Origin: Shimia aestuarii
GTDB taxonomy: Bacteria; Pseudomonadota; Alphaproteobacteria; Rhodobacterales; Rhodobacteraceae
Length of the DNA: 64,000 nt
Direction of reading: 5' to 3'
Assembly (NCBI RefSeq): GCF_900114635.1
Contig: NZ_FOTQ01000003.1
Span: forward strand, 2,501 to 66,500
This document shows positions 4,673-26,014 of this stretch, in pieces. Both the position numbers and the translations under genes were made by a program. The notes under the pieces are model-generated. The model saw nothing but the letters and a program-made list of their open reading frames with translations, ran no database searches and was not told where the DNA came from. Position 1 is the first letter of the stretch; each line of letters begins with the position of its first letter.

Positions 4673-5905
4673 TTACTTGCCGCGAACTTCCTGTACCCAC
4701 GCGACGATCAACTGGCGGGCCTCAAGATCCATCTCGATCGCGTTCGGCGGGGGCATGGCGTGGGTGCGCCCGGCTTGCAGATATATCTGCTCTGCGTGGC
4801 GTGCGACATCGGCCTCTGTTTCCAGCACCACGCCCTTGGGAGGCCAATGCAGACCCTCCCAGGACGGTTCGCGCGCATGACACATCGAACAATTGCCTGT
4901 CACGGCGTAGTAAGCGTCTTCGAAACGCTCCGCCGATGCGTATTTCTGCTCATAAGGCGTCAGGGCGCGGGCCTCGGATTCTTCGTAGGTTTCCATGCTG
5001 GATACCGTGGACAGCCAGGCAATCGCAACCATCAGCAAAACCGTTACCGCCCAGGTCCAATTCGGCCCCTTGCCGGTTTTGTGCATTGTGTTGAAGTAGT
5101 GACGGATCGTGACACCGGTAAGGAAAATGAGGCTGGCAATGATCCAGGCGTACTCGGTCGCAAACGCAAGCGGGTAATGGTTCGACAACATCAGGAAAAC
5201 GACCGGCAGCGTGAGGTAGTTGTTGTGCGTTGAGCGGACCTTGGCGATCTTGCCGTACTTGGCATCCGGCGTGCGCCCGTTCTTGAGATCATCCACAACG
5301 ATGCGCTGGTTCGGCATGATCTGGAAGAATACGTTGGCGGTCATGATCGTCGCCGTGAAAGCTCCAAGGTGCAGCAGCGCCGCGCGGCCCGTAAAGATCT
5401 GGTTATAGCCCCAAGACATGATCACGAGGATCACAAACAGCAGCAACATCAACAGGGTAGGTTGCTCACTCAGTTTGGATTTACACATGAAATCATAGGC
5501 CAGCCAGCCGATTGTCAAAGACCCGCCCGAGATCAGGATACCCTGCCACAGCGACAGCTCCGCCTTGGTCGGATCCAGCAGGAACAGCTCGCCCCCTACC
5601 CAGTAGACGATCATCAGAAGTGCGGCACCTGAGAGCCATGTCGTATAGCTTTGCCATTTGTGCCATGTCAGGTGCTCGGGCATTTCTGCGGGTGCCACGA
5701 GATACTTTACCGTGTGATAAAACCCGCCACCATGCACTTCCCATTCTTCGCCATAGGCCCCTTTGGGCAAATGCGCGGCGGGTTTCAGCATCAGATCGAG
5801 CGCAATGAAATAAAAGGACGCGCCAATCCATGCCATCGCGGTGATGACATGCAGCCAGCGGACCGAAAACGCGATCCAGTCCCATAGAATTGCCAGATCA
5901 TACAT
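4673..5905 (-). CDS. puuD: Membrane-bound urate hydroxylase PuuD with C-terminal cytochrome c domain
   Basis: PuuD oxidises urate to 5-hydroxyisourate at the cytoplasmic membrane and replaces soluble uricase, passing electrons to a respiratory chain instead of to H2O2. The 410-residue protein has an N-terminal region with about eight hydrophobic helices (WLHVITAMAWIGASFYFIA is the first clear one) and a C-terminal class I cytochrome c domain with heme motif CSMCH at 339-343 and a likely Met ligand in MPPP near 383. The start at 5905 is chosen because GGGAGA lies 6 bases upstream and the longer reading frame adds 29 basic residues without homology. It is divergent from a LysR gene with 100 bp between. 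The 222 bp downstream (4451-4672) show no gene. Confidence 0.93.
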   Translation of the reverse strand: MYDLAILWDWIAFSVRWLHVITAMAWIGASFYFIALDLMLKPAAHLPKGAYGEEWEVHGGGFYHTVKYLVAPAEMPEHLTWHKWQSYTTWLSGAALLMIVYWVGGELFLLDPTKAELSLWQGILISGGSLTIGWLAYDFMCKSKLSEQPTLLMLLLFVILVIMSWGYNQIFTGRAALLHLGAFTATIMTANVFFQIMPNQRIVVDDLKNGRTPDAKYGKIAKVRSTHNNYLTLPVVFLMLSNHYPLAFATEYAWIIASLIFLTGVTIRHYFNTMHKTGKGPNWTWAVTVLLMVAIAWLSTVSSMETYEESEARALTPYEQKYASAERFEDAYYAVTGNCSMCHAREPSWEGLHWPPKGVVLETEADVARHAEQIYLQAGRTHAMPPPNAIEMDLEARQLIVAWVQEVRGK

Positions 5906-5949
5906 GGCAGGTCTCCCAAGATTCGAACTTTCGAACACTCTATTCGAGC

Positions 5950-5980
5950 GGCTTTTATTCTGGTATTGCTGGTAAAAGCC
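5950..5980. promoter_or_regulatory. Candidate operator in the puuD-LysR divergent promoter
   Basis: A perfect inverted repeat GGCTTTTA - 15 bases - TAAAAGCC lies between the divergent starts of puuD (5905) and the LysR gene (6006). A second symmetric patch, TTCGAACTTTCGAA (5922-5935), is closer to puuD. LysR regulators usually bind dyads of this size in a shared divergent promoter. Binding is inferred. Confidence 0.5.
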
Positions 5981-6005
5981 AAGCAGTATCAAAAAAAGCG
6001 AAACA

Positions 6006-6926
6006 ATGTCCTATTTCGATAATATCCGCACCTTTGTCCGTGTCTACGAGCTTGGCAGCATGTCAGCCGCCGGGCGAGACCTGCGTGTCTCCCCTGCGGT
6101 CACGTCGTCTAGAATTTCACAGCTTGAAGAACATCTTGGGGTGCGCTTGTTCCAACGCACCACCCGAAGCCTTGCCCCGACCGAGCAGGGCAAGTCGTTT
6201 TATCGCGGCGCGACCGATATCCTTGAATCGGTCGAGCGGGCCGAGGCGCAGATCGTCAACATCACCGAAAATCTCAAAGGGGCGCTCTATGTGGCCGCGC
6301 CCTTGGGGGTCGGGCGGCGGCTGATCGCGCCGCAAGTTCCTGATTTCCTGAAACAATACCCCGAAGTCAACATGCGCCTGCGCCTGACCGACCGGAATGT
6401 TGATCTCACCACCGAAGGGCTCGATCTGTCATTCTTTCTGGGTCAACCCGAGGATAGCAACCTCAGAATCCGCAAGATTGCCGATGTGGAGCGGGTGCTC
6501 TGTGCCTCGCCGGATTACATCGCCGCGCGCGGTATGCCTGCCAACGGCGACGCTCTGGTCGCGGACAATCACGAATGCCTGAGCCTGCGCTTTCCCGGCG
6601 CGACCGAGTTCCAGTGGCGCCTTTCGACGCCTGATGGCCCGCGCCGGTTCCGGGTGTCGGGGCGCTATGAATCAGATGATGGGGATGTGCTGACCGACTG
6701 GGCTTTGGCAGGTCATGGGGTGGCAATGAAGCCGGTTTTCGAAGTGATCGAACACCTCAATGCCGGGACGCTGGTACCCGTAGCGGTTGAAACGCCACCT
6801 GAACCGATCCAGATGGCGTGTCTTTTTACGCATCGCCGAATGCAGGACCCGAAAACCCGGCTGTTCATGGAATTCATGATCGAGCGCATCGCCACGGCCG
6901 TGCGCGTTTCGCCAAAACCGGCTTAG
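6006..6926 (+). CDS. LysR-family transcriptional regulator, probably of purine catabolism
   Basis: A 306-residue LysR-type regulator. An N-terminal winged helix-turn-helix (about residues 3-62, including [20 protein letters not shown]) is followed by a linker helix and a periplasmic-binding-like effector domain (about 90-295). It is transcribed away from puuD and converges on uraH, overlapping its end by 4 bp. By position it should control puuD and possibly the neighbouring ureide genes, with urate or a downstream ureide as plausible inducer; that is inference. The start is the first ATG of the frame and gives the standard LysR N-terminus. Confidence 0.88.
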
Positions 6927-7276
6927 CTGCCGCGATAGGTTGAATACCCGAAGGGCGAGAGCAACAGCGGCACGTGGTAATGCGAGGCCTCGGACATGCC
7001 AAACCGGATCGGGATAATGTCAAGGAACCGCGGATTTTCGGGCGGCGTACCCGAGGCGTCAAGATAGGCACCTGCGTAGAAGATCAGCTCATATTCGCCC
7101 AACTCGAATTCGGACGCCGGAAGGATCTGTTCATCGGTACGCCCGTCGTCATTGGTCACAAGCGTCTTGAGGTGGCTGCGCGTGTCGCCGTTGATCCGGT
7201 AGAGCTCGATTTTGAGACCTTGCGCCGGACACCCGCGCGCGGTGTCAAGGACATGGGTGGTCAGATAACCCGACAT
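6923..7276 (-). CDS. uraH: 5-hydroxyisourate hydrolase
   Basis: UraH (HIU hydrolase, transthyretin-related) hydrolyses 5-hydroxyisourate, the PuuD product, to OHCU. The 117-residue length is normal. The N-terminal [14 protein letters not shown] motif and the C-terminal YRGS tetrapeptide are diagnostic of the enzyme, as opposed to vertebrate transthyretin, and the active-site His and Arg residues are in the expected blocks. The start at 7276 is preceded by AGGAGA; the longer frame adds 16 unlikely residues. It is divergent from puuE with 147 bp between, and converges on the LysR gene. Confidence 0.95.
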
Positions 7277-7423
7277 GGCAATATCTCCTAATTGTTTGAG
7301 ACCTTCTAGTCCGGTTGCCCGCATCGAGGCAAAGGCGGACTGCCCAAAGGCTCTTTATCATTTTTTTTGAAAAACTACTTACATTGTTTGGTATATCAAG
7401 CATCAAAACCAGAGGAACATGCT

Positions 7424-8836
7424 TTGAATAGATATCCACGAGATCTGACCGGGTATGGTGCCAATATTCCGGCGGCAAATTGGCCGGGTGGCGCCCGGAT
7501 CGCCGTTCAGATTGTGCTGAACTACGAAGAGGGCGGCGAGAACAACGTATTGCACGGCGATCCCGCGTCCGAGGCATTCCTGTCCGAAATCACCGGCGCA
7601 CAGCCTTGGCCCGGGCAGCGGCACTGGAACATGGAATCGATCTATGAATACGGCGCGCGGGCCGGGTTCTGGCGGGTGCATCGTCTGCTCAAAGACACAC
7701 CACTCACGGTTTACGGTGTCGCCACAGCGCTGGCCCGCGCGCCCGAACAGGTCGCGGCGATGAAGGCCGCGGGCTGGGAGATTGCCAGCCATGGTCTGAA
7801 GTGGATCGAACACAAGGACATGTCCCCCGAGGAAGAGCGCGCGCAAATCCGCGAGTCGATCCGGTTGCATGCCGAGGTCACGGGCACCCCGCCGCGCGGC
7901 TGGTACACCGGGCGCTGTTCCATGAACACGGTCGATCTGGCCGCCGAAGAGGGCGACTTTGCCTATATCGCCGACAGCTATGCCGACGATCTCCCCTATT
8001 GGGTCAGGGCCGGGAGCAAGGATCAGCTGATCGTTCCCTACACCATGGATTGCAACGACATGCGCTTTGCCATTCAGGCGGGCTATACCAACGGCGATCA
8101 GTTCGAAAGCTATCTCAAGGACAGCTTTGACATGCTCTATGCGGAAGGGCAGGCGGGTGCGCCCAAGATGCTCTCGATCGGGTTGCACTGCCGCCTTATC
8201 GGGCGTCCCGGACGCGCCGCCGCGCTCAAGCGTGTGCTCGATCATTTCAACAAACATGAAGGTGTCTGGTTCGCGACCCGAGAACAGATCGCCGATCATT
8301 GGGCCAAGGAACATCCCCCCATGCAGACAACGCGCCCCTCCGAAATGGACCAACAGACTTTTGTGTCCGAGTTTGGCGGTATCTTTGAACACAGCCCGTG
8401 GATCGCCGAAGGGGCCTTTGAGCTTGAACTGGGGCCGACCCATGATACGGCGGCTGGTGTGCACAACGCCCTAGCCCGCGTGTTCCGGTCAGCCAGCGAG
8501 GAGCAGCGGCTAGGCGTGCTGGTGGCCCACCCGGACCTTGCCGGAAAGCTGGCCGAGGCCAAGCGTTTGACCGCCGAGTCGACCGCTGAGCAGGCGTCCG
8601 TGGGCTTGGATGCGCTGACTGACGAAGAACGTGCCATGTTCACCGAGCTGAACAGCGCCTATGTCGCAAAATTCGGGTTTCCCTTCATCATCGCCGTGCG
8701 CGACAACACCAAGGCAACCATCACCGAGGCTTTCAAGCGCCGGATCAACAACGACCGCGCCACCGAATTCGCCGAAGCCTGCCGTCAGGTTGAACGTATC
8801 GCCGAGTTGCGCCTGCAGGAAAAACTGGGCGCATGA
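7424..8836 (+). CDS. puuE: Bifunctional allantoinase (PuuE) / OHCU decarboxylase (UraD) fusion
   Basis: A two-domain enzyme. Residues about 1-305 form a cofactor-independent allantoinase of the polysaccharide-deacetylase fold (NRYPRDLTGYG start, NYEEGGE, SHGLKWIEH), opening allantoin to allantoate. Residues about 315-470 form the OHCU decarboxylase domain (HPDLAGK, FGFPFIIAVR), making S-allantoin. The fusion thus carries out two successive steps, with the product of the C-terminal domain feeding the N-terminal one. The start is taken as TTG at 7424, 7 bases after AGAGGA, because homologues begin at NRYPRDLTGYG; another TTG at 7367 would add 19 residues with no RBS. It overlaps allA by 4 bp (ATGA), indicating translational coupling. 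Confidence 0.93.
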   Translation: MNRYPRDLTGYGANIPAANWPGGARIAVQIVLNYEEGGENNVLHGDPASEAFLSEITGAQPWPGQRHWNMESIYEYGARAGFWRVHRLLKDTPLTVYGVATALARAPEQVAAMKAAGWEIASHGLKWIEHKDMSPEEERAQIRESIRLHAEVTGTPPRGWYTGRCSMNTVDLAAEEGDFAYIADSYADDLPYWVRAGSKDQLIVPYTMDCNDMRFAIQAGYTNGDQFESYLKDSFDMLYAEGQAGAPKMLSIGLHCRLIGRPGRAAALKRVLDHFNKHEGVWFATREQIADHWAKEHPPMQTTRPSEMDQQTFVSEFGGIFEHSPWIAEGAFELELGPTHDTAAGVHNALARVFRSASEEQRLGVLVAHPDLAGKLAEAKRLTAESTAEQASVGLDALTDEERAMFTELNSAYVAKFGFPFIIAVRDNTKATITEAFKRRINNDRATEFAEACRQVERIAELRLQEKLGA

Positions 8837-9321
8837 CCCGGCACATCCGCATTGAGCCGCTGACCCAAGAGGCGTTTGCACCTTTTGGCGAGGTGCTCGA
8901 CACGTCGGGCGCGCCGGACAAACTCATCAACCAGGGGCTTTGCGGGCGCTATCACGATCGCGCTACGCTGGATTTCGTTGAGGGGCGCGCAGGGATCAGC
9001 CTGTTTCAGGCCGAACTGCGCAGCCTGCCCTATCAACTCGATATGATGGAGCGGCACCCCGACGGATCACAGGCCTTCATTCCGATGAGCATGGAGGCAT
9101 TTCTGGTCATTGTTGCCGAAGATACAGGCAACGGCCCCGCAACGCCCCGCGCGTTCATCACGTCCCCCGGTCAGGCCATCAACTTTGCCCGCAACACGTG
9201 GCACGGAGTCCTGACACCGATCACAGGATCGGGGCTGTTTGCCGTGGTCGATCGGATCGGCGCTGGGGCCAACTTGGAAGAATTCTGGTTCGACACCCCT
9301 TTCACGGTGGTGGCGGACTAG
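8833..9321 (+). CDS. allA: Ureidoglycolate lyase
   Basis: AllA splits S-ureidoglycolate into glyoxylate and urea, the last carbon-skeleton step of purine breakdown. The 162-residue single-domain protein fits the family; recognisable stretches are PLTQEAFAPFGEV near the start, FIPMSMEAFLVIVA in the middle and NFARNTWHGVLTPI with the conserved HG of the active-site cupin-like barrel. The start codon overlaps the puuE stop (ATGA). The glyoxylate it releases is the substrate of the bhc cycle encoded about 10 kb away. Confidence 0.93.
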   Translation: MTRHIRIEPLTQEAFAPFGEVLDTSGAPDKLINQGLCGRYHDRATLDFVEGRAGISLFQAELRSLPYQLDMMERHPDGSQAFIPMSMEAFLVIVAEDTGNGPATPRAFITSPGQAINFARNTWHGVLTPITGSGLFAVVDRIGAGANLEEFWFDTPFTVVAD

Positions 9322-9381
9322 AACCCAAGGGCCACCAGGGAGGAGAGGTGGCCCCAACAACAGCTAGTGGGGAGACACATT

Positions 9382-10806
9382 ATGGCTGATGCTTCAATCG
9401 GGACGCCGGAACAGCTGCGCGATCCGAACTATACACCACCCATTGCCAAGGCGGTTCCGCTTGGAATCCAACACGTGCTGGCCATGTTCGTTTCGAACGT
9501 GACGCCCGCCATTATCGTGTGTGGAGCTGCCGGGTTCGGGTTCGGCTCGAACAGCCCGGACTTTCCGCAGATGATCTACATGATCCAGATGTCGATGTTC
9601 TTTGCGGGCATCGCGACCCTCTTCCAGACAGTGGGGATCGGTCCCGTTGGTGCGCGCCTGCCCATCGTTCAGGGAACATCCTTTGCCTTTATCCCGATCA
9701 TGATCCCGCTGGTTGCGGGCAAAGGGGTGGACGCGATTGCCGTTCTAATGGGCGGTATTTTGGTCGGCGGCCTGTTCCATGCCTTCTTGGGCTTGTTCAT
9801 CGGCAAGATCCGCTTTGCCCTGCCACCGCTGGTCACGGGCCTCGTGGTGACGATGATTGGTTTGGCGCTGGTCAAGGTCGGTATTCAGTATGCCGCAGGT
9901 GGTGTGCCTGCCATTGGCAAGCCCGAATACGGATCGCTCATCAACTGGACCATGGCGCTGATCGTGATCTTCGTGACGCTGGGGCTCAAGTTCTTTGCCA
10001 AGGGCATGATGTCGGTCTCGGCGGTACTGATCGGGCTGATCGTGGGCTATGTCTTTGCTTTCGTGATGGGAGAAGTCAGCCTTGCCAATGTGGGCCGCGC
10101 GGCGACATTCGCCCTGCCGAATCCTCTGCACTTCGGCCTTGAGTTTTCGATGGCCGCCATCATCGGCTTCTGCCTGATGTCCTTTGTCTCGGCGGTAGAA
10201 ACCGTGGGTGACGTGTCCGGGATCACCAAAGGTGGCGCCGGACGTGAGGCCACCGATACGGAAATCCAGGGCGCAACCTATGCCGACGGGTTCGGCACCG
10301 CGATCTCGGGTCTCTTCGGTGCGCTGCCCAACACCTCGTTCAGCCAGAATGTCGGCCTGATCGCCATGACCGGCGTGATGAGCCGGGGGGTTGTGACCAT
10401 CGGCGCACTCTTCCTGATCCTTGCTGGGCTTGTCCCCAAGATCGGGGCGGTGATCTCGTCAATCCCGATCGAGGTTCTGGGTGGTGGCGTGATTGTGATG
10501 TTCGGCATGGTCGCGGCTGCAGGTATCTCAATGCTCTCGGACGTGCACTGGAACCGCCGCAACATGGTGATCTTCGCGATTTCCCTGTCACTGGGGTTGG
10601 GTCTTCAGCTTGAGCCGGGTGCGTTGCAGCACCTGCCGAGCACGATCAAGGTGCTGGCCACCTCGGGCATCCTGCCAGCGGCGCTGATTGCCATCGTCTT
10701 GAACCTGATCCTGCCCGAAGAACTCTCCGATGAAGCAACCGAGGAAGTGTCGGGCGGAATGTCGGGCCATTCCAAAGGTTCATTGCCCCATGATGATCAC
10801 GTCTAA
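9382..10806 (+). CDS. NCS2-family purine permease, probably urate/xanthine
   Basis: A 474-residue inner-membrane transporter of the nucleobase-cation symporter-2 family with about 14 hydrophobic segments. The signature region (SAVETVGDVSGITKG followed by GLFGALPNTSFSQNVGLIAM) matches the xanthine/urate branch, in which the Glu and the NTSFSQNVG loop contact substrate. It sits 60 bp downstream of allA and is probably co-transcribed with puuE-allA. ATG 9382 is chosen over an upstream in-frame GTG because GGGGAGA lies just before it. A perfect hairpin terminator follows. Substrate is inferred from context and motif. Confidence 0.9.
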   Translation: MADASIGTPEQLRDPNYTPPIAKAVPLGIQHVLAMFVSNVTPAIIVCGAAGFGFGSNSPDFPQMIYMIQMSMFFAGIATLFQTVGIGPVGARLPIVQGTSFAFIPIMIPLVAGKGVDAIAVLMGGILVGGLFHAFLGLFIGKIRFALPPLVTGLVVTMIGLALVKVGIQYAAGGVPAIGKPEYGSLINWTMALIVIFVTLGLKFFAKGMMSVSAVLIGLIVGYVFAFVMGEVSLANVGRAATFALPNPLHFGLEFSMAAIIGFCLMSFVSAVETVGDVSGITKGGAGREATDTEIQGATYADGFGTAISGLFGALPNTSFSQNVGLIAMTGVMSRGVVTIGALFLILAGLVPKIGAVISSIPIEVLGGGVIVMFGMVAAAGISMLSDVHWNRRNMVIFAISLSLGLGLQLEPGALQHLPSTIKVLATSGILPAALIAIVLNLILPEELSDEATEEVSGGMSGHSKGSLPHDDHV

Positions 10807-10853
10807 GGGGCGAGTGCATTGACAACCGCCTGACGCGGTTTGAAAAAGAATGG

Positions 10854-10885
10854 AAAGCGGCGTGGCCCCCACGCCGCTTTTCTCT
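10854..10885 (+). terminator. Rho-independent terminator after the purine permease
   Basis: A perfect 12-bp stem AAAGCGGCGTGG / CCACGCCGCTTT with a 3-base loop, followed by TTCTCTT. It lies between the permease stop and the TauE/SafE start and probably ends the puuE-allA-permease transcript. Confidence 0.75.
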
Positions 10886-10900
10886 TGGAAGGGGAAGACG

Positions 10901-11659
10901 ATGAGCGTTCTGGAAATTGTTGTGCTGGCGTTGGCAGGGTTCGGGGCCGGTGTCGTCAACACCATCGCAGGTGGAGGGACGTTTCTGACCTTTCCGGCGC
11001 TTGTCTGGGCCGGGGTGCCGCCCGTCGCGGCCAATGCCACCAGCGCCGTGTCGGTGTTTCCCGGCTATCTCGGCGGCGCCATCGGGTTCCTTTCGGAACT
11101 CAAAACCCTCTCACGCGCACAGATGATCCGCCTGACGGCGATCACCCTTGCTGGCGGTCTGACCGGATCCTTGCTTCTGCTGGTGTCTTCGAACGAGGCG
11201 TTTTCGCTGATTGTCCCGTTCCTATTGTTCTTTGCGACCACGGCTTTCCTGTTGGGCGGTAAACTACGCGCTTGGGCGGAACGCAGATCGCGCGCTCTGA
11301 AACCCGAAGGCGCGCTCGGACTTTTTCTGGTCAGCGTCTATGGCGGCTATTTCAACGGTGGGCTTGGCATCGTTTTGCTGGCGCTGTTCGCCATGTGGGG
11401 CTGGCGCGATATCCACCTGATGAATGGCGTCAAGAACGGTCTGTCCTTTGCCCTTTCGGCCATCTCTGTCGCCACCTTTGCCGTTGCCGGGCTGGTCGTC
11501 TGGCCGATGGCGGTTCTGATGATGGTGTTCGCGGTGCTCGGGGGCTATGGCGGGGCATGGATTGCCAAGGCCGTGCCTGCCTCGGTGGTCCGCATCATCG
11601 TGATCCTCATCGGCTATGGCATGAGCGCCATCTTCCTCGGCCGTTTGTTTGTCGGCTGA
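10901..11659 (+). CDS. TauE/SafE-family membrane protein (anion exporter or importer)
   Basis: A 252-residue protein with about eight transmembrane segments and the two conserved family repeats (GFGAGVVNTIAGGGTFLTFP and YGGYFNGGLGI). The family moves sulfite, sulfonates and small organic anions; no purine substrate is established. Start 10901 follows GGAAGGGGAAG, while the longer frame would begin inside the terminator. It lies downstream of a terminator and converges on guaD, so its membership of the purine pathway is suggested only by position. Confidence 0.85.
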   Translation: MSVLEIVVLALAGFGAGVVNTIAGGGTFLTFPALVWAGVPPVAANATSAVSVFPGYLGGAIGFLSELKTLSRAQMIRLTAITLAGGLTGSLLLLVSSNEAFSLIVPFLLFFATTAFLLGGKLRAWAERRSRALKPEGALGLFLVSVYGGYFNGGLGIVLLALFAMWGWRDIHLMNGVKNGLSFALSAISVATFAVAGLVVWPMAVLMMVFAVLGGYGGAWIAKAVPASVVRIIVILIGYGMSAIFLGRLFVG

Positions 11660-14738: not shown

Positions 14739-14805
14739 TGGGACCTCCATTAGCAAACCGATGCCCTGCCGCCTCCTCCTCGACGCAACAGAACCCGGCG
14801 TTTTC

Positions 14806-17986: not shown

Positions 17987-17997
17987 CGCCCTACTCC

Positions 17998-19461
17998 TCA
18001 CGCGATGGCCAGACGCACAGGCGCGTCTTGGGCGGTGTCGTGTTCAAGATGGAAACGCCGCAACAGATTGCCCGCAACCAGCAACCGGTACTCGGCAGAG
18101 GCCCGCCAGTCCGAAAGCGGGGTGAAATCCTGCGCCAGCGCCTTGGCGGCGGCGTCGAACGCCTCTGCAGTCCAGCTTTGCCCGACCAACGCGGCCTCGG
18201 CAGACGCGGCGCGTTTTGGCGTCGCGGCCATGCCACCAAAAGCAATCCGGGCCTCGGTTATCGTGCCGCTTTCAAGAACAACACTGATCCCCACGGCGAC
18301 CGAGGAAATATCCTCGTCCCGCCGCTTGGAAATCTTGTAGGCGGCGTCGATCTGTCCCGGTTTCGCGCGCGGAATGCGGATGCTGGCGACAAAATCCCCG
18401 GCTTCCCGATCCTGCTTGCCATAGTCGATAAAGAACGCTTCCAGCGGCAGGGTGCGCGCCCCCCCCGCCTTTTGCAACGTCACTTCGGCGCCAAGCGAGA
18501 TCAGAACCGGCGGCGTGTCCCCGATGGGCGACCCGTTGGCGACATTGCCCCCGATCGTGCCCATGTTGCGCACCTGCCAGCCGGCAATGCGGTCCCAGTA
18601 TTCGCGCAGATGCGGGAACGCCTCGCGGATGGCGGCTTCGCTCTCGCTATAGGTCACGCCCGCACCGACGGTCAGCGCGTCGTCGTCCAGCGTGATGTCT
18701 TTCAACTCTTCCAGGTGGTTGATGAACACCACCGGAGAAATCGGGCGCATGAATTTCGTCACCCAAAGGCCCACATCGGTCGATCCGGCAACGATGGTCG
18801 CCTTGGGATTGTCCGCAAGAACCTCCGCCAGATCGGCCACGTCATGTGGCAGGATAGCCCGGTCATCCTCTGGCCCGGTCTCGATCCGCCCTTCGGGCTG
18901 CAATGCCGCAAGCCGTGTGGTCACGTCGGCGCGCTCGCGGTTCAGGTAATCATGCGATGGGCTGCCATACTGGTTCACGGCCAATGCGGCCTGCACAATC
19001 GGCTCATACCCGGTGCAACGGCACAGGTTGCCCTGCAGCGCAGTTTCCACCTCTTGCGCGCTGGGCGTCGCGTTTTCCATCCACAGCGCATAAAGCGACA
19101 TTACAAAGCCCGGCGTGCAGAATCCGCACTGGCTGCCGTGATGCTCGACCATGGCCTCCTGCACCGGGTGAAGCCGGCCATCCGGGCCGGACAGGTGTTC
19201 AATCGTGACAATGTGACAGCCATTCAGCGACGCAAGGAAACGGATGCATGCATTGATCGTCTCATAGTGCAGCACACCATTGCGCAGCCGCCCGACCAAG
19301 ACCGTGCAGGCACCGCAATCGCCCTCGGCACAGCCTTCCTTGGAGCCCGTCAGGCGCTGCTCGATACGCAAATAATCGAGCAGTGTCAGGGTCGCCTTCG
19401 GATCGGTAACCGTAGTTTCCTTGCCGTTCAGCAGAAACCGGATTTCGTTTTGATGTGCCAT
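17998..19461 (-). CDS. xdhA: Xanthine dehydrogenase iron-sulfur/FAD subunit XdhA
   Basis: A 487-residue subunit carrying two [2Fe-2S] clusters and FAD. Cluster cysteines are visible at C44, C49, C52 and C72 (plant-ferredoxin fold) and at C112, C115, C147, C149 (QCGFCTPGF and CRCTGY). The FAD domain follows from about residue 185 (TIVAGSTDVGLW, GTIGGNVANGSPIGD). It passes electrons from XdhB to NAD+. ATG 19461 has GGGAG upstream; the long open frame beyond it is not coding-like. It is the first gene of xdhABC, with about 175 bp to the bhc operon terminator. Confidence 0.95.
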   Translation of the reverse strand: MAHQNEIRFLLNGKETTVTDPKATLTLLDYLRIEQRLTGSKEGCAEGDCGACTVLVGRLRNGVLHYETINACIRFLASLNGCHIVTIEHLSGPDGRLHPVQEAMVEHHGSQCGFCTPGFVMSLYALWMENATPSAQEVETALQGNLCRCTGYEPIVQAALAVNQYGSPSHDYLNRERADVTTRLAALQPEGRIETGPEDDRAILPHDVADLAEVLADNPKATIVAGSTDVGLWVTKFMRPISPVVFINHLEELKDITLDDDALTVGAGVTYSESEAAIREAFPHLREYWDRIAGWQVRNMGTIGGNVANGSPIGDTPPVLISLGAEVTLQKAGGARTLPLEAFFIDYGKQDREAGDFVASIRIPRAKPGQIDAAYKISKRRDEDISSVAVGISVVLESGTITEARIAFGGMAATPKRAASAEAALVGQSWTAEAFDAAAKALAQDFTPLSDWRASAEYRLLVAGNLLRRFHLEHDTAQDAPVRLAIA

Positions 19462-19635
19462 TGGAACTCCCGTGTCGCCCCGGATTCTAGGGGATATCAG
19501 ACAGTGTAGCGCGTGTGACTGCCACGAAAAACGAGTGGTATCACGAAATACTTTCAACACTGCATTGAAAAAGACTTTAGCGCCATGGCCTTGGCGGGGC
19601 TGCCCAGAAAAGCGCCACACCGGAGCACACAGCGC

Positions 19636-19666
19636 AAAAAACGCCCCGCGCATTGGCGGGGCGTTT
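19636..19666 (-). terminator. Rho-independent terminator of the bhcABCD operon
   Basis: On the minus strand AACGCCCCGC and GCGGGGCGTT form a perfect stem around a short loop, followed by six T. It lies 37 bp beyond the bhcD stop and separates the bhc operon from xdhA. Confidence 0.85.
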
Positions 19667-19702
19667 CGTTGGATAGTCAGGGTGTAACAGGTGATCCGAG
19701 CG

Positions 19703-20668
19703 TCAGAAATCCACCTCGATCGCCACGCCTTTTTCCACGGCAAGATCGACCACCGAAGCCGCCACCGCGAGGTCCTGCAAACCCACACCAGTGCCGTCAA
19801 ACAGCGTGATCTGGTCATCGGAACTGCGGCCCGGATGCGTGCCATTGATCACCGCGCCAAGCTCTGCCACATCTTCGGCACGGATCAGCCCCTCGGCAAC
19901 CGCGTGTTGCGCCTCTCCGATGGAAATCGACTGCGCGACCTCGTCCGTGAACACGGTGGCCTTGGCCAAGAGGCGCGCCTCAACCTCTTGTTTTCCCTTG
20001 GTATCTGTCCCCATACAGGCGACATGCGTGCCTTCCGAGACGTGATCGGCCAAAAGTGACGGTGCAAAGGCCGAGGTGATCGAGACGATCACATCCGCCT
20101 CCCGCATCCCTTCAAGGTCAACCGCCTCAAACGGCACGCCCGCCTCTTCTGCGACTGTGGCAATGTTAGGCAGCATCTCGGGGTGATAGTTCCAGCCGAT
20201 GACCTTTTCGAAATCCCGCTGTTCCAAGGCGGCACGCAGTTGGAACGTCGCCTGATGGCCAGCGCCGATCATGCCCAGAACCTTGGCGTCCTTGCGCGCC
20301 AGATGCTTGATAGACACTGAAGATGCCGCTGCCGTGCGCAGCGCGGTCAAAAGGTTGCCCCCGACCATCGCCCGCACCATGCCCGTGTCAGGATCAAACA
20401 GGAACACCGTCGACTGATGATTGATCAGCCCGCGCTTTTCCAAATTGTTGGGCCAATAGCCCCCGGCCTTGAGGCCAAGCGTCAACCCCGCGCGGTCAAA
20501 TCCGCCCTTGAAGCCATAAAGCGCGTCTTCATGACCGATCGCCTCGCGCACGACCGGAAAATTATAGGCATCCTTGGATGCCATTGCGGCAAAAACCTGT
20601 TCCACGGCCTCAAAGGCCGCGGCGCGCGTCATCAGGTCCGCGATATCGCGTTCGGGTACGATCAGCAT
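19703..20668 (-). CDS. bhcD: Iminosuccinate reductase (beta-hydroxyaspartate cycle)
   Basis: BhcD reduces iminosuccinate to L-aspartate, regenerating the amino donor of the cycle. The 321-residue protein belongs to the ornithine cyclodeaminase/mu-crystallin family, with the Rossmann motif LGMIGAGHQA at 131-140 and the family segment VGGNLLTALRTAAASSVS just before it. The family contains many enzymes, so the specific function rests on its place as last gene of a complete bhcABCD set. Start 20668 follows GGAGA. A 108-bp gap separates it from bhcC. Confidence 0.92.
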   Translation of the reverse strand: MLIVPERDIADLMTRAAAFEAVEQVFAAMASKDAYNFPVVREAIGHEDALYGFKGGFDRAGLTLGLKAGGYWPNNLEKRGLINHQSTVFLFDPDTGMVRAMVGGNLLTALRTAAASSVSIKHLARKDAKVLGMIGAGHQATFQLRAALEQRDFEKVIGWNYHPEMLPNIATVAEEAGVPFEAVDLEGMREADVIVSITSAFAPSLLADHVSEGTHVACMGTDTKGKQEVEARLLAKATVFTDEVAQSISIGEAQHAVAEGLIRAEDVAELGAVINGTHPGRSSDDQITLFDGTGVGLQDLAVAASVVDLAVEKGVAIEVDF

Positions 20669-20776
20669 GGGAAGTCTCCAAATCTAGTCAGGTCCGCCCA
20701 TGTGCTCAGCAGGATGAGAAACTGGCGCATGGGCGGTCTCCGGGCGGGGCCGCCGCCCGGATGGGTCACTCTTGGA

Positions 20777-21931
20777 TCAATAGGCGCGGCCGCGCGCCGA
20801 GACGGGCCAGACGGTTTCCACCTTGCTGTTCCGCACTCCGACATACCAATCGTGCACGTTTGCGGTCGGGTCACAGTGGCCGGGCACGAGCCGCAGCTTG
20901 TCATTCACCTTGAGCACGCCGTTGGGGTCCATGACCACGCCATGTTCGTCCGAGCATTTGATGTATTCGACATCATCCCGGCCAAAGATCACCGGCAGGC
21001 CCGAGTCGACCGACTGTGCCTTGAGGCCCGCATCCACGATGGCCTTGTCCGCCTTGGCATGCGACATGACCGAGGTCAGGATGAAGAATGCGTTTTCCCA
21101 TTCGCCCTGATCGATACGCTTGCCATCCTTGTCCAGAATGCGCCCGTAATCGGCGTCCATGAACGCATAGGATCCACATTGCAGCTCGTTATAAACGCCG
21201 CTGTTGGACTCAAAGTAATACGATCCGGTGCCGCCGCCGGAAACCAGCTCACAGGTGATCCCCTCGGCTTTAAGCCCGTCCACGGCGTCCTGCACCATGG
21301 CAATCGCCACGTCGAGCTTGTCCTTGCGGTCCTCATAGCTGTCCAGATGCTGCATCGCGCCCTGATAGGCCTGAATGCCCGAGAACTTCAGGTTCTCTGC
21401 CGCCTCGACCGCCTTGGCAATCGCCACGACCTCGGGCGTGGTGGTGACACCGCACCGTCCCGCGCCGCAATCGATCTCGATGAACACCTCGATTTCGGTG
21501 CCATGTTTGACCGCTGCCGCCGAAAGCTCGGCGACATTTTCGATGTCATCCACGCAAACAATTGTGCGGCTGCCGAACTTGGGCAGGCGGGCCAGACGGT
21601 CGATCTTGGCCGGGTCGCGCACCTGGTTCGAGACAAGGATGTCCTTGATCCCGCCGCGGGCAAACACCTCGGCCTCGGACACTTTCTGACAGCACACGCC
21701 AACCGCGCCGCCAAGGCTTTCCTGAAGCTTGGCGACATCGACAGACTTATGCATTTTGCCATGCACCCGATGCCGCATCCCATGCGCCTTGGCATAGTCG
21801 CCCATTTTCTTGATGTTGCGCTCCAGCGCGTCCAGATCCAGCACCAGTGCGGGCGTCTGGATCTCGGCCTCGTCCATGCCGGGCTTGGCCGGGATGTCAA
21901 AGCCCACTTCGTAAGTGTCCAGGTTTGTCAT
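20777..21931 (-). CDS. bhcC: Beta-hydroxyaspartate aldolase
   Basis: BhcC condenses glyoxylate with glycine to (2R,3S)-beta-hydroxyaspartate. The 384-residue PLP enzyme has the alanine racemase/D-threonine aldolase barrel: TPALVLDLDALERNI near residue 27, the PLP lysine in RVHGKMHKS (K59), VSGGGTGSY for phosphate binding, and GHCDPT near the C-terminus where the family binds its divalent metal. Start 21931 is taken; an in-frame ATG nine bases upstream (21940) is also possible, and neither has a strong RBS. Third gene of the bhc operon. Confidence 0.92.
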   Translation of the reverse strand: MTNLDTYEVGFDIPAKPGMDEAEIQTPALVLDLDALERNIKKMGDYAKAHGMRHRVHGKMHKSVDVAKLQESLGGAVGVCCQKVSEAEVFARGGIKDILVSNQVRDPAKIDRLARLPKFGSRTIVCVDDIENVAELSAAAVKHGTEIEVFIEIDCGAGRCGVTTTPEVVAIAKAVEAAENLKFSGIQAYQGAMQHLDSYEDRKDKLDVAIAMVQDAVDGLKAEGITCELVSGGGTGSYYFESNSGVYNELQCGSYAFMDADYGRILDKDGKRIDQGEWENAFFILTSVMSHAKADKAIVDAGLKAQSVDSGLPVIFGRDDVEYIKCSDEHGVVMDPNGVLKVNDKLRLVPGHCDPTANVHDWYVGVRNSKVETVWPVSARGRAY

Positions 21932-22012
21932 GTCTCTCATCTTTCGATCTTTCGGTACGGGGCGGTGCGTGCAAGCACACACCCTACAGTTTCGTTGGTT
22001 GGGTGCGTGATC

Positions 22013-22969
22013 TCACGCACCATGGGTCCACGGCAGTCGATCCAGATCGACATTGCCGCCGGTGATGATCAGCCCCACGCGCTTGCCCTTGAACGCGTCC
22101 GGGTTCTTGAGAACGGTCGCCATGGGCACCGCGCTTGACGGCTCCATGACAATCCGCAGATGTTTCCAGATCAGCTTCATCGCATCGATGATTTCCTGTT
22201 CGGACGCGGTGTAGATCTCGCTCACATGGTTCGACACGAAATGCCATGTCAGGTCCTTGAGCGGCACCAACAGCCCGTCCGCGATGGTCTTGGGCGCATC
22301 ATCGGCAATGATGTGCCCCGCCTTGAAGCTGCGATAGGCGTCATCGGCCTGTTCCGGCTCGGCGGCGATCACCTGCGTCTCAGGCGCCAGCGTCGCCAGC
22401 GTCAGGCAGGTGCCCGAGATCATGCCCCCCCCGCCAATCGGCGCGACCACCATGTCGAGCCCATCGGTTTGTTCCATGAACTCGCGCGAACAGGTGCCCT
22501 GACCGGCGATGACGCGCGGATCGTTATAGGGGTGCACGAAATCACCGCCCGATTCCGCCTGAACCCGCGCAAAGGTTTCTTCGCGCGACGAGGTGGACGG
22601 CTCACATTCCGTGATCTGACCGCCATAGCGACGGACCGTGTCCTTCTTGGCCTGCGGGGCCGTGCGCGGCATCACCACGTTACAGGGGATGCCGCGCTTC
22701 ATGGCGGCATAACTCAGACAGGACGCATGATTGCCCGAGGAATGCGTGGCCACGCCCCTGGCGGCTTGTGCATCATCCAGCCCGAACACGGCGTTCGAGG
22801 CACCGCGAACCTTGAACGCGCCAGGTTCCTGGAAGTTCTCGCACTTGAAGAACAGCTCGGCGCCGGTCAGTTCATTGAGGTAATCCGAGGTCCGCACCGG
22901 GGTGCGCCGGATATACGGTTTGATGCGCTCATGCGCGTCCAGCATGTCCTGATAGGTTGGAATATACAT
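22013..22969 (-). CDS. bhcB: Beta-hydroxyaspartate dehydratase
   Basis: BhcB dehydrates beta-hydroxyaspartate to iminosuccinate. The 318-residue fold-type II PLP enzyme resembles serine/threonine dehydratase and serine racemase: the PLP lysine is K53 in EPGAFKVRGA, SSGNHASCLSY follows at about 77-87, and the phosphate loop IGGGG is at 178-182. ATG 22969 is chosen (AAGGA eight bases upstream). The alternative ATG at 22984 overlaps the bhcA stop codon (TGATG) and would add five residues. Either way the pair is tightly coupled. Confidence 0.92.
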   Translation of the reverse strand: MYIPTYQDMLDAHERIKPYIRRTPVRTSDYLNELTGAELFFKCENFQEPGAFKVRGASNAVFGLDDAQAARGVATHSSGNHASCLSYAAMKRGIPCNVVMPRTAPQAKKDTVRRYGGQITECEPSTSSREETFARVQAESGGDFVHPYNDPRVIAGQGTCSREFMEQTDGLDMVVAPIGGGGMISGTCLTLATLAPETQVIAAEPEQADDAYRSFKAGHIIADDAPKTIADGLLVPLKDLTWHFVSNHVSEIYTASEQEIIDAMKLIWKHLRIVMEPSSAVPMATVLKNPDAFKGKRVGLIITGGNVDLDRLPWTHGA

Positions 22970-22983
22970 CGCGGTATCCTTCA

Positions 22984-24174
22984 TCACGCGGCATCTTTCT
23001 GGGCTTCGATCCCGTGTCCACGGTAATACTCCTGCGCGGCAGCAACCCCCGAACCCAGCCGGACATCCAGCCCCAGATCGACCATGCACATCTCGGCCGT
23101 TGCAATCCCCGAAAGCGCCATGACATCGGTCAGACTTCCCAGATGGCCAATGCGGAACACCTTGCCCGCCACTTCGCCAAGCCCCACGCCAAAGGCGACG
23201 CCGTATTTGCTGGCGGCATGGGTGACGATGTCGGTCGCGTTGAACCCGTCAGGTGTGCGGATGGCGCTGACCGTGTCGGAATAGACCGACGGATTGGCCG
23301 CGCACAGCTCCAGCCCCCAAGCGCCTACAGCGGCTCGCACGCCTTCGGCGATGCGGTGATGGCGGGCAAATACGTTCTCCAACCCTTCGTTCAGCAGCAT
23401 CGCGCAGGCTTCGTTCAGCCCGTTCAACAAGCCAACGGCGGGTGTGTATGGATAGGCATTGTTAGCATAGCCTGCGGTCATGTCGTTGATGTCAAAAAAG
23501 GTGCGGGGCAGGGTGGCGGACTTGGTGGCCTCGATCGCCTTGGCGCTAAAGCCCACGATGGCCAGCCCAGCGGTCAGCATGAACCCCTTTTGCGAACCGG
23601 TCACGGCAACATCCACGCCCCATTCGTCCATGCGGAAATCCATCGACGCAATCGATGACACGCCGTCCACGAACAACAGCGCGGGGTGCCCCGCCGCATC
23701 CAGCGCGCGGCGCACAGCAGCGATGTCCGACTTCACGCCTGTGGCGGTCTCGTTATGCGTGGCCAGAACCACCTTGATCTTATGGGCGGTGTCTGCCGTC
23801 AGAATTTCTTCATAGCGGTCCGCCGGAAGCCCTTCGCCCCACGGGGTCTCCACAACCTGAACATCCAGCCCGTGCCGCTGGCACATGTCGATCCAGCGAT
23901 GGCTGAACATGCCATTGCGCGCCGCCAGAACCTTGTCACCCGACGAAAGACAATTGGTCAGAGCGGTTTCCCAACCACCGGTGCCGGTCGAGGGGAAAAT
24001 GAAAACTTCCGCCGTCTCGCTCTTGAGGATCTTGCGTACGCCCGCGCGGGCCGGGTGCAGGATTTGCCCAAACAGTGACGACCGGTGGTCGATGGTGGGC
24101 ATGTCACAGGCCTTGCGCAGGCTCTCGGGGATATTGGTCGGGCCGGGAATAAAGACCGGGTTCTGAAAGCTCAT
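22984..24174 (-). CDS. bhcA: L-aspartate:glyoxylate aminotransferase
   Basis: BhcA transfers the amino group of aspartate to glyoxylate, giving glycine and oxaloacetate, and oxaloacetate is the net product of the cycle. It is a 396-residue class V PLP aminotransferase with N-terminal NPVFIPGPTNIPESL, FPSTGTGGWE for cofactor phosphate, and the PLP lysine K196 in VTGSQKGFM. The same fold includes serine- and ureidoglycine-glyoxylate aminotransferases, which is notable beside ureide genes; the bhcABCD order supports the BHA-cycle call. Start 24174 follows AAGGAGA. First gene of the operon, divergent from bhcR. Confidence 0.92.
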   Translation of the reverse strand: MSFQNPVFIPGPTNIPESLRKACDMPTIDHRSSLFGQILHPARAGVRKILKSETAEVFIFPSTGTGGWETALTNCLSSGDKVLAARNGMFSHRWIDMCQRHGLDVQVVETPWGEGLPADRYEEILTADTAHKIKVVLATHNETATGVKSDIAAVRRALDAAGHPALLFVDGVSSIASMDFRMDEWGVDVAVTGSQKGFMLTAGLAIVGFSAKAIEATKSATLPRTFFDINDMTAGYANNAYPYTPAVGLLNGLNEACAMLLNEGLENVFARHHRIAEGVRAAVGAWGLELCAANPSVYSDTVSAIRTPDGFNATDIVTHAASKYGVAFGVGLGEVAGKVFRIGHLGSLTDVMALSGIATAEMCMVDLGLDVRLGSGVAAAQEYYRGHGIEAQKDAA

Positions 24175-24233
24175 GGATCGTCTCCTTGCATCGTTGCCCT
24201 GACCATAGACGCGCTTCCCTGCAGGTGAAATTT

Positions 24234-24315
24234 TTTTGAAATCATTTTTCAAAAGTGGAGAGGTGAGAAAAAACCAAGTCTTGTCAGCGGCTTGAATTTT
24301 TCATATTGTGAAAAA
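24234..24315. promoter_or_regulatory. Paired inverted repeats in the bhcA-bhcR divergent promoter
   Basis: Two perfect dyads lie between the divergent genes: TTTTGAAA-N5-TTTCAAAA (24234-24254) and TTTTTCA-N5-TGAAAAA (24297-24315). They share a 5-base spacer and TTTTTCA/TGAAA elements, with centres 62 bp apart. BhcR of Paracoccus is known to bind the bhc promoter in a glyoxylate-sensitive way; that these are its sites here is inferred. The right dyad abuts the bhcR ribosome-binding region, which would allow autoregulation. Confidence 0.6.
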
Positions 24316-24343
24316 GGCTTTCACTTTGATGGAGAGACATTTT

Positions 24344-25189
24344 ATGGATTCTCAGGAAAATGGTCCGAACGAGGGTCGCAGAGCGCGTGGGCGCCCGCGC
24401 GACTGGCATGACAAAACAGAACAGAACACCATCAAATCGCTGGATCGCGCAATGGCGGTGCTTGAGTATCTGAGCCGGTCAAAGGGCTTGCCCCTGACCC
24501 GTATTGCCGAGGATATGGGTCAGTCTCCGGCCACGGTGTACCGCGTTCTGGTCACGCTCGAAGGGCGCGGCCTTGTGGATTTCGATGCGGATGAACAGGT
24601 CTGGAATATCGGCCCCGGTGCTTTTGTGATCGGCGCCCGTTTCCTGCGCCGCACCAGCCTTGTCGACCGTGCCCGCCCGATCATGCGCAAGCTGATGGAA
24701 GACACCGGCGAAACCGCCAACCTCGGGATCGAAAAGGAAGGCAGCGTTCTGTTTCTGAGCCAGGTGGAAACCCACGAAACCATCCGCGCCTTTTTCCCGC
24801 CCGGCACGCTCTCTGACATGCACTCGTCCGGGATCGGCAAGGCGCTTATGGCGCATATGGAGACGGATCGTCTGCAAAGGGTTCTCGCCAAAAGCAGTTT
24901 GCAGGCCTTTACCGAGTACACCATCACGGACCGTGACGCGCTCATGCAAGACCTCGCTCAAATCCGCGCCCGAGGGTTTTCCATCGACAACGAAGAACGC
25001 ACGGCGGGCATGCGCTGTATCGCGGCGCCGGTTTTCGACATGAACGGAGAGGCCCTGGCCGGGATTTCCGTCTCGGGACCGACCAGCCGGGTCAGCCCGG
25101 AGGAGATTGCGCGCCTGGGCGCCCCGGTCACCGAGGCAGCCAAGGCGCTGACGCAGGCGATCGGGGGCGTAGCGCCAGCGTTAACGTGA
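24344..25189 (+). CDS. bhcR: IclR-family regulator of the bhc operon
   Basis: A 281-residue IclR regulator. After a basic N-terminal tail (RRARGRPRDWHDK) comes the winged helix-turn-helix (about 30-90, LTRIAEDMGQSPATVYRVL) and the effector domain (about 105-270, with TGETANLGI and AGMRCIAAPVFD). It is divergent from bhcA, the arrangement known for bhcR/bhcABCD, where glyoxylate modulates binding. ATG 24344 has GGAGAG upstream; the in-frame GTG at 24308 lies inside an inverted repeat and is rejected as the start. Its 3' end overlaps allE by 9 bp tail-to-tail. Confidence 0.92.
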   Translation: MDSQENGPNEGRRARGRPRDWHDKTEQNTIKSLDRAMAVLEYLSRSKGLPLTRIAEDMGQSPATVYRVLVTLEGRGLVDFDADEQVWNIGPGAFVIGARFLRRTSLVDRARPIMRKLMEDTGETANLGIEKEGSVLFLSQVETHETIRAFFPPGTLSDMHSSGIGKALMAHMETDRLQRVLAKSSLQAFTEYTITDRDALMQDLAQIRARGFSIDNEERTAGMRCIAAPVFDMNGEALAGISVSGPTSRVSPEEIARLGAPVTEAAKALTQAIGGVAPALT

Positions 25190-26014
25190 GAGCCGCGGAC
25201 GCAGCGACATGTGCCGGTTGACGTCCTTGTAAAGCAGGTACCGGAACTTGCCCGGCCCACCGGCATAACAAGCCTGCGGGCAGAAGGCGCGCAGCCACAT
25301 GTAATCCCCGGCCTCGACCTCGACCCAGTCATTGTTCAAGCGATAGGCCGCCTTGCCTTCAAGCACGTAAAGCCCGTGCTCCATCACATGGGTTTCCAGA
25401 AACGGAATCACGGCGCCCGGTTCAAACGTGACAATGGTCACATGCATGTCATGGCGCAGGTCTGCCGGGTCGACGAAGCGCGTCGTCGCCCACTTGCCCT
25501 CGGTGCCCGGCATCACGTTGGGCGCGATATCCTGCTCATTGAGCACCAGCACATCCGGTGTGTCCAACCCTTCAACCGCTTCATAAGCCTTGCGAATCCA
25601 ATGAAACCGCAGCGTCTCATCGCCACGGTTGCGCAGGGTCCAACCCGACGAAGGGGGCAGATAGGCATAACCGCCCGGCGTCATCTCATGGGTCTCTCCG
25701 CCCACGTTCAACGTGGCGGTGCCTTCCACGACAAACAGAACCCCTTCGGCCTCGGGATCGGTTTCGGGCCGATCCGAGCCACCATCAGGTTGGACTTCCA
25801 TGATGTACTGCGAAAACGTCTCGGCAAATCCGGTCATGGGCCGTGCAATCACCCAGAGCCGCGTATCGTCCCAGAACGGCAGAAAACTCGTCACGATGTC
25901 GCGCATGGTGCCCTTGGGAATAACGGCATAGGCGTCGGTGAAAATCGCACGATCCGTCAGAAGTTGTTCCTGGCCGGGGTGCCCCCCGCGCGGTGCATAA
26001 TAGGTGGTGCTCAT
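25181..26014 (-). CDS. allE: (S)-ureidoglycine aminohydrolase
   Basis: AllE releases ammonia from S-ureidoglycine to give S-ureidoglycolate, the AllA substrate. The 277-residue protein is a bicupin: the first barrel spans about residues 55-135 (EGVLFVVEGTATLNVGGE) and the second about 175-262 (HVMEHGLYVLEGKAAYRL), the second carrying the expected Mn-binding Glu/His residues. The start at 26014 follows AGGAG. The gene is separated from the other ureide genes by the xdh and bhc operons and converges on bhcR with a 9-bp overlap. Confidence 0.92.
   Translation of the reverse strand: MSTTYYAPRGGHPGQEQLLTDRAIFTDAYAVIPKGTMRDIVTSFLPFWDDTRLWVIARPMTGFAETFSQYIMEVQPDGGSDRPETDPEAEGVLFVVEGTATLNVGGETHEMTPGGYAYLPPSSGWTLRNRGDETLRFHWIRKAYEAVEGLDTPDVLVLNEQDIAPNVMPGTEGKWATTRFVDPADLRHDMHVTIVTFEPGAVIPFLETHVMEHGLYVLEGKAAYRLNNDWVEVEAGDYMWLRAFCPQACYAGGPGKFRYLLYKDVNRHMSLRPRLSR

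Follow-up and report, generated by a model that had tools for sequence, protein, structure and literature searches.

In a 64,000-nucleotide stretch of contig NZ_FOTQ01000003.1 of the alphaproteobacterium Shimia aestuarii (hereafter the window, with positions counted from its first letter), genes for the breakdown of purines to glyoxylate adjoin those of the β-hydroxyaspartate cycle (bhc), which assimilates glyoxylate, and this adjacency suggests that purines feed carbon as well as nitrogen. The bhcABCD genes form a contiguous block that runs leftward from the divergent regulator gene bhcR, and all exceed curated cut-offs: BhcA, the aspartate-glyoxylate aminotransferase (22984–24174, minus strand; NF045640, 755.4 bits, cut-off 650), BhcB, the β-hydroxyaspartate dehydratase (22013–22963, minus; NF045641, 586.2 bits, cut-off 550), BhcC, the 3-hydroxyaspartate aldolase (20777–21940, minus; NF045642, 765.1 bits, cut-off 690), BhcD, the iminosuccinate reductase (19703–20668, minus; NF045643, 590.8 bits, cut-off 500), and the IclR-family regulator BhcR (24374–25189, plus; NF045644, 413.8 bits, cut-off 350). 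Beyond bhcR lies the gene of AllE, a cupin (S)-ureidoglycine aminohydrolase (25181–26014, minus; NF040771, 510.6 bits, cut-off 350; NF008376 also over its cut-off). The original prediction for this DNA, made from its letters alone, had attached AllE to the bhc side, tail-to-tail with bhcR, and the open reading frames (ORFs) of the two genes do overlap in this manner at 25181–25189.

AllE matches the NCBIfam exception model "bifunctional allantoicase/(S)-ureidoglycine aminohydrolase" (NF040771). No AllC in the window's genome passes its cut-off (best 236.6 bits against 597.75), which leaves AllE as the strongest candidate for the allantoate step too, and its sequence match indicates that it is probably bifunctional. 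A search of the same genome for allantoicase gave no match, but the control genomes gave none either, so that its absence is unproven. In a sample of genomes from the same order (described below), five genomes (G013, G016, G050, G170 and G174) contain bhc and no AllE over the cut-off; in G013, G050 and G174, linkage of bhc to AllA and PuuE-UraD persists, and the allantoate and ureidoglycine steps must therefore fall to another enzyme there. Three loci of the window's own genus (L125, L126 and L129, in G093, G109 and G001) carry a diverged BhcC, 63–66% identical to that of the window, in the same orientation as AllE and approximately 30 bp behind it. It is followed by a glyceraldehyde-3-phosphate dehydrogenase (GAPDH)-like gene and then by an ORF of 758 residues, which belongs to the malic-enzyme family in L129, the one tested. 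No BhcA, BhcB or BhcD was recognised near this diverged BhcC, and at 1e-130 BhcA is matched nowhere in the genome G001.

The purine genes occupy both sides of this block, and an enzyme was matched for every step from guanine to glyoxylate, with the allantoate step resting on the bifunctional label of AllE. To its left, directly behind bhcD, lie the xanthine dehydrogenase genes, encoding XdhA (17998–19461, minus; TIGR02963, 658.9 bits, cut-off 467), XdhB (15662–18001, minus; TIGR02965, 1318.6 bits, cut-off 849.5) and XdhC (14806–15657, minus; TIGR02964, 267.7 bits, cut-off 161.6), and farther on is the guanine deaminase GuaD (11698–13053, minus; NF006679, 646.5 bits, cut-off 351; TIGR02967 also over its cut-off). 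At the left end are the membrane urate hydroxylase PuuD (4673–5992, minus; PF06181, 432.8 bits, over the gathering score), the hydroxyisourate hydrolase UraH (6923–7324, minus; PF00576, 121.7 bits, over the gathering score), a fusion of the allantoinase PuuE with the OHCU decarboxylase UraD (7367–8836, plus, with its start near 7430; TIGR03212, 504.5 bits, NCBIfam cut-off 424.6; TIGR03164, 206.7 bits, cut-off 96.3) and the ureidoglycolate lyase AllA, which yields glyoxylate and urea (8833–9321, plus; NF002952, 267.6 bits, cut-off 260). In PuuD, the urate oxidase N-terminal domain is matched and the match to the C-terminal cytochrome c domain falls below the gathering score; the true start probably lies inside the ORF. 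Every gene named in the original prediction was found at its place, nearly all over curated cut-offs. XdhA was among them, although its start had been put at 19845; the TIGR02963 match begins at residue 135 of that long ORF, which places the start at approximately 19461, where there is an ATG. In the genomes of the order, XdhB scores form two classes (approximately 1280–1350 bits, which includes that of the window, and approximately 1195–1255 bits); several genomes contain both classes, and the loci beside bhc seemingly carry the high one.

Several further genes of the region had not been named before. A LysR-type regulator of a kind that recurs in purine clusters lies between puuD and uraH (6006–6926, plus), and an NCS2 xanthine permease of the pbuX type (9367–10806, plus; TIGR03173, 433.8 bits, cut-off 414.15; PF00860) follows allA. 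Next to it is a TauE/SafE-type membrane protein (10850–11659, plus; PF01925), the gene of which recurs in some other purine clusters (G041 and G071, both of the window's genus, and Alloyangia by annotation). A second transporter, of 533 residues, is encoded between xdhC and guaD (13155–14756, minus). It is annotated in relatives as "xanthine/uracil/vitamin C permease" and is 83–87% identical across three relatives, but it has no match in Pfam or NCBIfam and no credible sequence match in the PDB (best E 0.069); it possibly represents an undescribed family of purine transporters. Likewise new are genes for a glycolate oxidase, glcDEF (52446–56430), comprising a GlcD-like subunit (52446–53936, plus; TIGR00387, 453 bits, below the cut-off of 567.9), GlcE (53867–55102, plus; NF008439, over the cut-off) and GlcF (55108–56430, plus; NF008434, over the cut-off).

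The conservation of this arrangement was surveyed in an evenly drawn sample of 196 genomes (87 genera), at least 90% complete, of the window's order, which to judge from named relatives is Rhodobacterales. BhcC occurs with at least 500 bits at 127 places in 122 of these genomes, and approximately 10 kb on each side of every place, ending at contig ends, was taken and annotated with the proteins of the window and with further proteins of purine, glycolate and glycerate pathways. The counts below refer to the 108 loci, in 55 genera, that contain all four bhc genes; outside this set are six loci in which three of the four were recognised, none of them linked to purine genes, and 13 with BhcC and without most of the other bhc genes, five of which lie beside purine enzymes. 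At least one purine-catabolic enzyme is encoded within approximately 10 kb in 59 of the 108 complete loci and 35 of the 55 genera, and at least two in 54 loci and 32 genera. Contig ends shorten ten of the 108 loci, and the loci of at least 19.9 kb give 53 linked of 98, in 33 of 51 genera. Twenty-eight genera are linked in every sampled locus and 20 in none. By our own arithmetic, a single purine cluster at a random position of an approximately 4-Mb genome would be expected this close in only approximately 0.5% of cases. The purine enzyme closest to the bhc block (bhcR included) is less than 300 bp away in 39 of the 59 linked loci. AllE lies beside bhc in 41 loci (30 genera), and it is the tail-to-tail neighbour of BhcR in 26 (19 genera), within 117 bp in all but one of them. 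Thus, the adjacency is far from unique to this genome. The original prediction had proposed, as a check, to look for conservation of bhc-xdh-allE adjacency; its purine side, and AllE above all, recurs across the order, whereas direct linkage of bhc to xdh is confined to eight of the 108 loci, in six genera. The recurrent partners of bhc are AllE and a block of NCS2 permease, AllA, PuuE, UraH and PuuD.

The same picture emerged from a control that uses no labels, in which ORFs of at least 100 residues in the bhc loci were clustered and the families were ranked by number of genera. After the five bhc families, the seven commonest neighbours all belong to the purine cluster: AllE (29 of 55 genera), PuuE-UraD (26), AllA (26), UraH (25), the NCS2 permease (23), LysR (21) and PuuD (18). 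The first neighbours of other kinds are a GAPDH-like gene (16 genera), ABC ATPases (13) and an antisense-looking, probably spurious ORF (8), and all remaining families occur in five genera or fewer. The GAPDH-like gene is found behind bhcD (for example L063:13299-14330 and L135:17108-18106) in 19 complete loci of 15 genera, 17 of them purine-linked, and in 16 genera by clustering; the one tested falls in the GAPDH-I family, below the cut-off. A role in gluconeogenesis, or in the oxidation of erythrose-4-phosphate for pyridoxal phosphate, would be a guess. A channel of the AmiS/UreI type (L003:30818-31330, L135:16599-17105) separates bhcD from the NCS2 gene in Leisingera, by Pfam match, and in Sulfitobacter, by annotation, a position that fits the release of urea by AllA.

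Named relatives were compared through the best 80 of 574 loci by closeness to the BhcC of Paracoccus ferrooxidans, a set that is biased to Paracoccus and in which 16 loci are shorter than 19.9 kb. A purine enzyme occurs in 43 of the 80 and glcDEF in two; 64 have complete bhc, and linkage is seen in 42 of these. The gene after bhcD, at a distance of 35–90 bp and in the same direction, encodes an 8-oxoguanine deaminase or an NCS2 permease in 25 of the 80, every one labelled as Paracoccus, and behind it UraH is encoded in all 25 and PuuD in 20; the permease behind bhcD in P. ferrooxidans exceeds the pbuX cut-off. Judged by spacing and strand, this operon-like arrangement is the strongest sign of possible co-transcription. 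An NCS1 permease of the nucleobase/allantoin type is inserted between bhcC and bhcD in Ruegeria sediminis, in Pseudosulfitobacter and in three loci of the order sample, five loci in all; that of Pseudosulfitobacter is nearest to the allantoin permease, far below the cut-off. Linked layouts are present on annotated plasmids of Alloyangia, Leisingera, Ruegeria, Sulfitobacter, Paracoccus and Pseudosulfitobacter. Outside the order, purine genes also adjoin bhc in members of Hyphomicrobiales, namely Oricola, a Methylobacterium, Rhizobium tropici and R. lusitanum. A contig labelled Spirulina subsalsa (L164) carries bhcB and bhcC, with a BhcC 87% identical to that of P. ferrooxidans, and is probably a contaminating alphaproteobacterial contig.

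The linked loci display 27 gene-order signatures, some of which differ only at the ends of the fetched stretch. A quick tree of concatenated BhcABCD was built from 139 loci, which comprise the complete order-sample loci together with selected named ones. This tree requires at least 25 changes of the linked label when rows with cut flanks are left out, and 27, 24 of them forced by the branches starred in the tree, when such rows are counted as unlinked; gain and loss are indistinguishable in these counts. The label is nevertheless more clustered than in shuffles, in this tree and in one of BhcC (none of 500 shuffles was as low), and so part of the linkage is inherited; the variety of signatures and the number of changes mean that shared descent alone is insufficient to account for it. 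The tree of BhcC only (161 rows) gave 40 changes without flank-cut rows and 43 with them, 17 of the latter forced by its starred branches; it is poorly resolved, and the four-gene tree was preferred. The surroundings of AllE were also compared in those 20 genomes without bhc in which AllE scores highest. In 14 of the 20, AllE faces the NCS2/AllA end, in a layout that equals the commonest bhc-containing one minus the block; the slot is a gap of 5–277 bp in five of these loci, holds a GAPDH-like gene in four, and spans 0.8–3.5 kb in five. Filled and empty slots are both present in two genera (g2 and g21). The bhc block is probably a cassette that many relatives carry at one recurrent site of the purine cluster, where allE and the NCS2/allA genes converge, and this site is empty in other genomes.

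Taken as a whole, the region is quite probably best explained as a purine-to-carbon catabolic island in which bhc assimilates the glyoxylate. Purine bases would enter via the permeases; guanine and xanthine would be converted to urate by GuaD and XdhABC, urate to allantoate by PuuD, UraH and PuuE-UraD, and allantoate to glyoxylate, urea and ammonia by the probably bifunctional AllE and by AllA. BhcABCD would then turn two molecules of glyoxylate into one of oxaloacetate with no loss of carbon. BhcR would sense glyoxylate and switch bhc on, so that purine breakdown would induce its own carbon salvage in series, while the purine genes would act on bhc via glyoxylate and would themselves be switched by their own LysR proteins. 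Glyoxylate from glycolate oxidase would feed the same cycle. The glyoxylate route of Escherichia coli loses one carbon in four and the β-hydroxyaspartate cycle none, and the NADH required by BhcD can come from Xdh. From the layout we infer flux along this route, its induction by purines, the role of the LysR proteins and growth on purine carbon; the conserved adjacency supports the original prediction that the cycle also serves purine carbon. Strains with the bhc block are predicted to use purines as a carbon source, and strains without it as a source of nitrogen only. A more far-reaching proposal, that in Rhodobacterales the cycle primarily serves purine catabolism as its carbon arm, glycolate use being secondary, and that the cassette toggles purines between a nitrogen-only and a carbon-and-nitrogen source, is put forward as a speculation with the balance against it.

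Several observations weigh against the interpretation of the region as a carbon island, and some of them concern glycolate. In 49 of the 108 complete loci, the approximately 10 kb on either side of bhc encode no purine enzyme, and one starred clade of 18 bhc rows has no linked member (16 unlinked, two flank-cut), so that a purine-independent bhc lineage exists too. Among named relatives, glcDEF takes the place of purine genes beside bhc in Sinorhizobium chiapasense, a Hyphomicrobium and Allorhizobium, all outside the order, and Paracoccus marcusii and Aminobacter aminovorans have neither purine genes nor glcDEF there. In the window itself glcDEF is 27 kb from bhc, which gives the cycle two sources of glyoxylate within approximately 30 kb, and a GlcD-like gene is present in 195 of the 196 genomes, in every case below the family cut-off; glycolate thus remains a full alternative source, and the near-universality of that gene makes the co-occurrence of bhc with glycolate oxidase useless as a test. 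The cycle might accordingly serve glycolate only, with its place beside purine genes due to the joint travel of accessory catabolic genes on plasmids or chromids. The presence of glcDEF in the same window and the publication of the cycle as a glycolate route (PMC11323563) are in line with this explanation, as are the many annotated loci on plasmids, a feature that follows from the choice of collection. However, none of glcD, glcE and glcF lies within approximately 10 kb of bhc in any of the 108 loci, against purine enzymes in 59; gene families other than those of the purine cluster, save the GAPDH-like gene, the ABC ATPases and the spurious ORF, do not exceed five of 55 genera; and the linkage recurs across many gene orders, is operon-like in Paracoccus and is also found on a single contig of 4.19 Mb (G002). 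Mere joint travel is therefore improbable. The bhc genes are a module coupled to different sources of glyoxylate, and for Rhodobacterales purine catabolism is the neighbour that recurs.

Regulation of the two arms appears to be split. The alignment of bhcR-bhcA intergenic regions contains a conserved palindrome, TGAAA-N5-TTTCA, to which BhcR would bind; the window has two exact copies there, a bhcA-proximal (24237–24251) and a bhcR-proximal (24309–24323) predicted operator, and no third anywhere in its 64 kb. For the BhcR of Paracoccus, passages of a published study report binding to the bhcR-bhcA region and a response to glyoxylate (PMC11323563). The exact site is present upstream of bhcA in 80 of 175 regions and, to be added to the points above, in none of the upstream regions of AllE (82), PuuE-UraD (81), AllA (75), UraH (95), PuuD (75), the NCS2 permease (85) and XdhA (30). 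With at most one mismatch, it occurs at PuuE-UraD in six of 81 regions (0.8 in shuffles), at UraH in two of 95 (0.2) and at AmiS in two of seven (0); related loci are counted separately here, and these matches are too few to build on, but they are not nothing. The predicted site, exact upstream of bhc only, does not point to BhcR as a shared regulator of both arms; a different, unrecognised site may exist.

A further point on the same side is a hairpin with a T-run directly behind bhcD (19635–19668, minus; −23 kcal/mol, z −3.8), a predicted intrinsic terminator between bhcD and xdhA that splits bhc from xdh in the window. The pattern scan omitted this hairpin; it gave a pair of weaker sites, overlapping each other and close behind the hairpin, and it found no sigma-70-like promoter in 19300–20000. 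It could be argued that bhcABCD, xdhABC, the permease gene and guaD form a single operon read from the bhcA promoter, given that the nine genes share one strand, that the gap between bhcD and xdhA is approximately 240–260 bp and those from xdhA to guaD are at most 105 bp, and that the LysR gene adjoining xdhA in relatives is missing here, its best copy in this genome, 71% identical, lying on another contig. The strength of the hairpin and its position immediately behind bhcD make such an operon unlikely in the window, and bhc and the xdhABC-permease-guaD genes, although neighbours, are probably separate transcription units.

A different objection concerns what purines are used for. AllE is found in 187 of the 196 genomes (186 over the cut-off), with bhc or without, from which it follows that co-occurrence is uninformative and that bhc is unnecessary for purine degradation. 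Purines may thus be a source of nitrogen only, in which case bhc would serve to remove reactive glyoxylate, with recycling of its carbon as a side effect and no growth on purine carbon. The near-universal AllE, which includes bhc-less genomes, means that the pathway is useful without bhc; only two of the five ring carbons become glyoxylate, the carbon-to-nitrogen yield is very low, and malate synthase G is present in the window's genome. On the other hand, a dedicated four-gene cycle for net assimilation exceeds the needs of disposal, and malate synthase alone can remove glyoxylate; malate synthase is encoded near bhc in two of the 127 loci. Nitrogen-only use is therefore a serious, though minority, possibility, and the carbon island remains the favoured explanation. 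If it is correct, those strains of a genus that carry the cassette should grow on purine carbon and those that lack it should not. The cycle has so far been discussed as a large-scale sink for glycolate, and if bhc is kept mostly beside purine catabolism, its transcripts in the field could not be read as glycolate use alone, and purines would count as a carbon source in algal-bacterial exchange.

Purine catabolism itself is not new to this group of bacteria: the xanthine catabolic genes of Ruegeria pomeroyi DSS-3, reportedly described by Cunliffe in 2016, are said to provide Xdh and a urate/allantoin pathway in a marine member of Rhodobacterales. For SAR11, glyoxylate, urea and NADH are given as the carbon, nitrogen and energy products of purines (PMC11698098); the route from purine to glyoxylate is shared with the window, and the word hydroxyaspartate is absent from that paper. 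With the bhcR-bhcABCD cluster of Paracoccus denitrificans, as described in its published account (PMC11323563), the window shares the four enzymes, BhcR, the divergent orientation of bhcR and bhcA and the conserved intergenic region. That cluster was published as a glycolate pathway, whereas the blocks of the window and of 35 of 55 genera lie beside purine catabolism; the P. denitrificans locus is outside the loci compared. No report of bhc beside purine genes was found in a library of 5.39 million open papers, and an earlier notice elsewhere is possible. The sole link between the cycle and purines found there is an introductory sentence of the same account, which names purines and allantoin as possible sources of glyoxylate (PMC11323563).

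The closest likeness is to the allantoin cluster of E. coli K-12, annotated in the order allS-allA-allR-gcl-hyi-glxR-allW-allB-ybbY-glxK-allE-allC-allD. Both combine ureide genes with a pathway for the net assimilation of glyoxylate and contain AllA, AllE, a purine-family transporter and an IclR-family regulator (AllR in E. coli, BhcR in the window). They differ in the assimilation arm, which is gcl-hyi-glxR-glxK in E. coli and the β-hydroxyaspartate cycle in the window, and in the point of entry, which is allantoin in the former and guanine, xanthine or urate in the latter. No homologue of AllB, AllC or AllD (E. coli queries, at least 35% identity) lies beside bhc in the 127 loci, and the gcl-hyi-glxR-glxK genes are near none of these, of the 80 named loci or of the 20 bhc-less AllE loci. 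A match to glyoxylate carboligase at 1e-180 occurs in none of the 196 genomes (the E. coli control was matched), and the window's genome has none over the cut-off (best 339 bits against 711). Unlike the arm of the E. coli cluster, bhc is separable from the purine operons, and regulation in the window appears to be split between the arms. By analogy, the nearest known kind of system would be the E. coli allantoin-glyoxylate cluster with its glycerate pathway replaced by the β-hydroxyaspartate cycle, and the comparison thus illustrates how one pathway of glyoxylate assimilation may be swapped for another inside a purine cluster.

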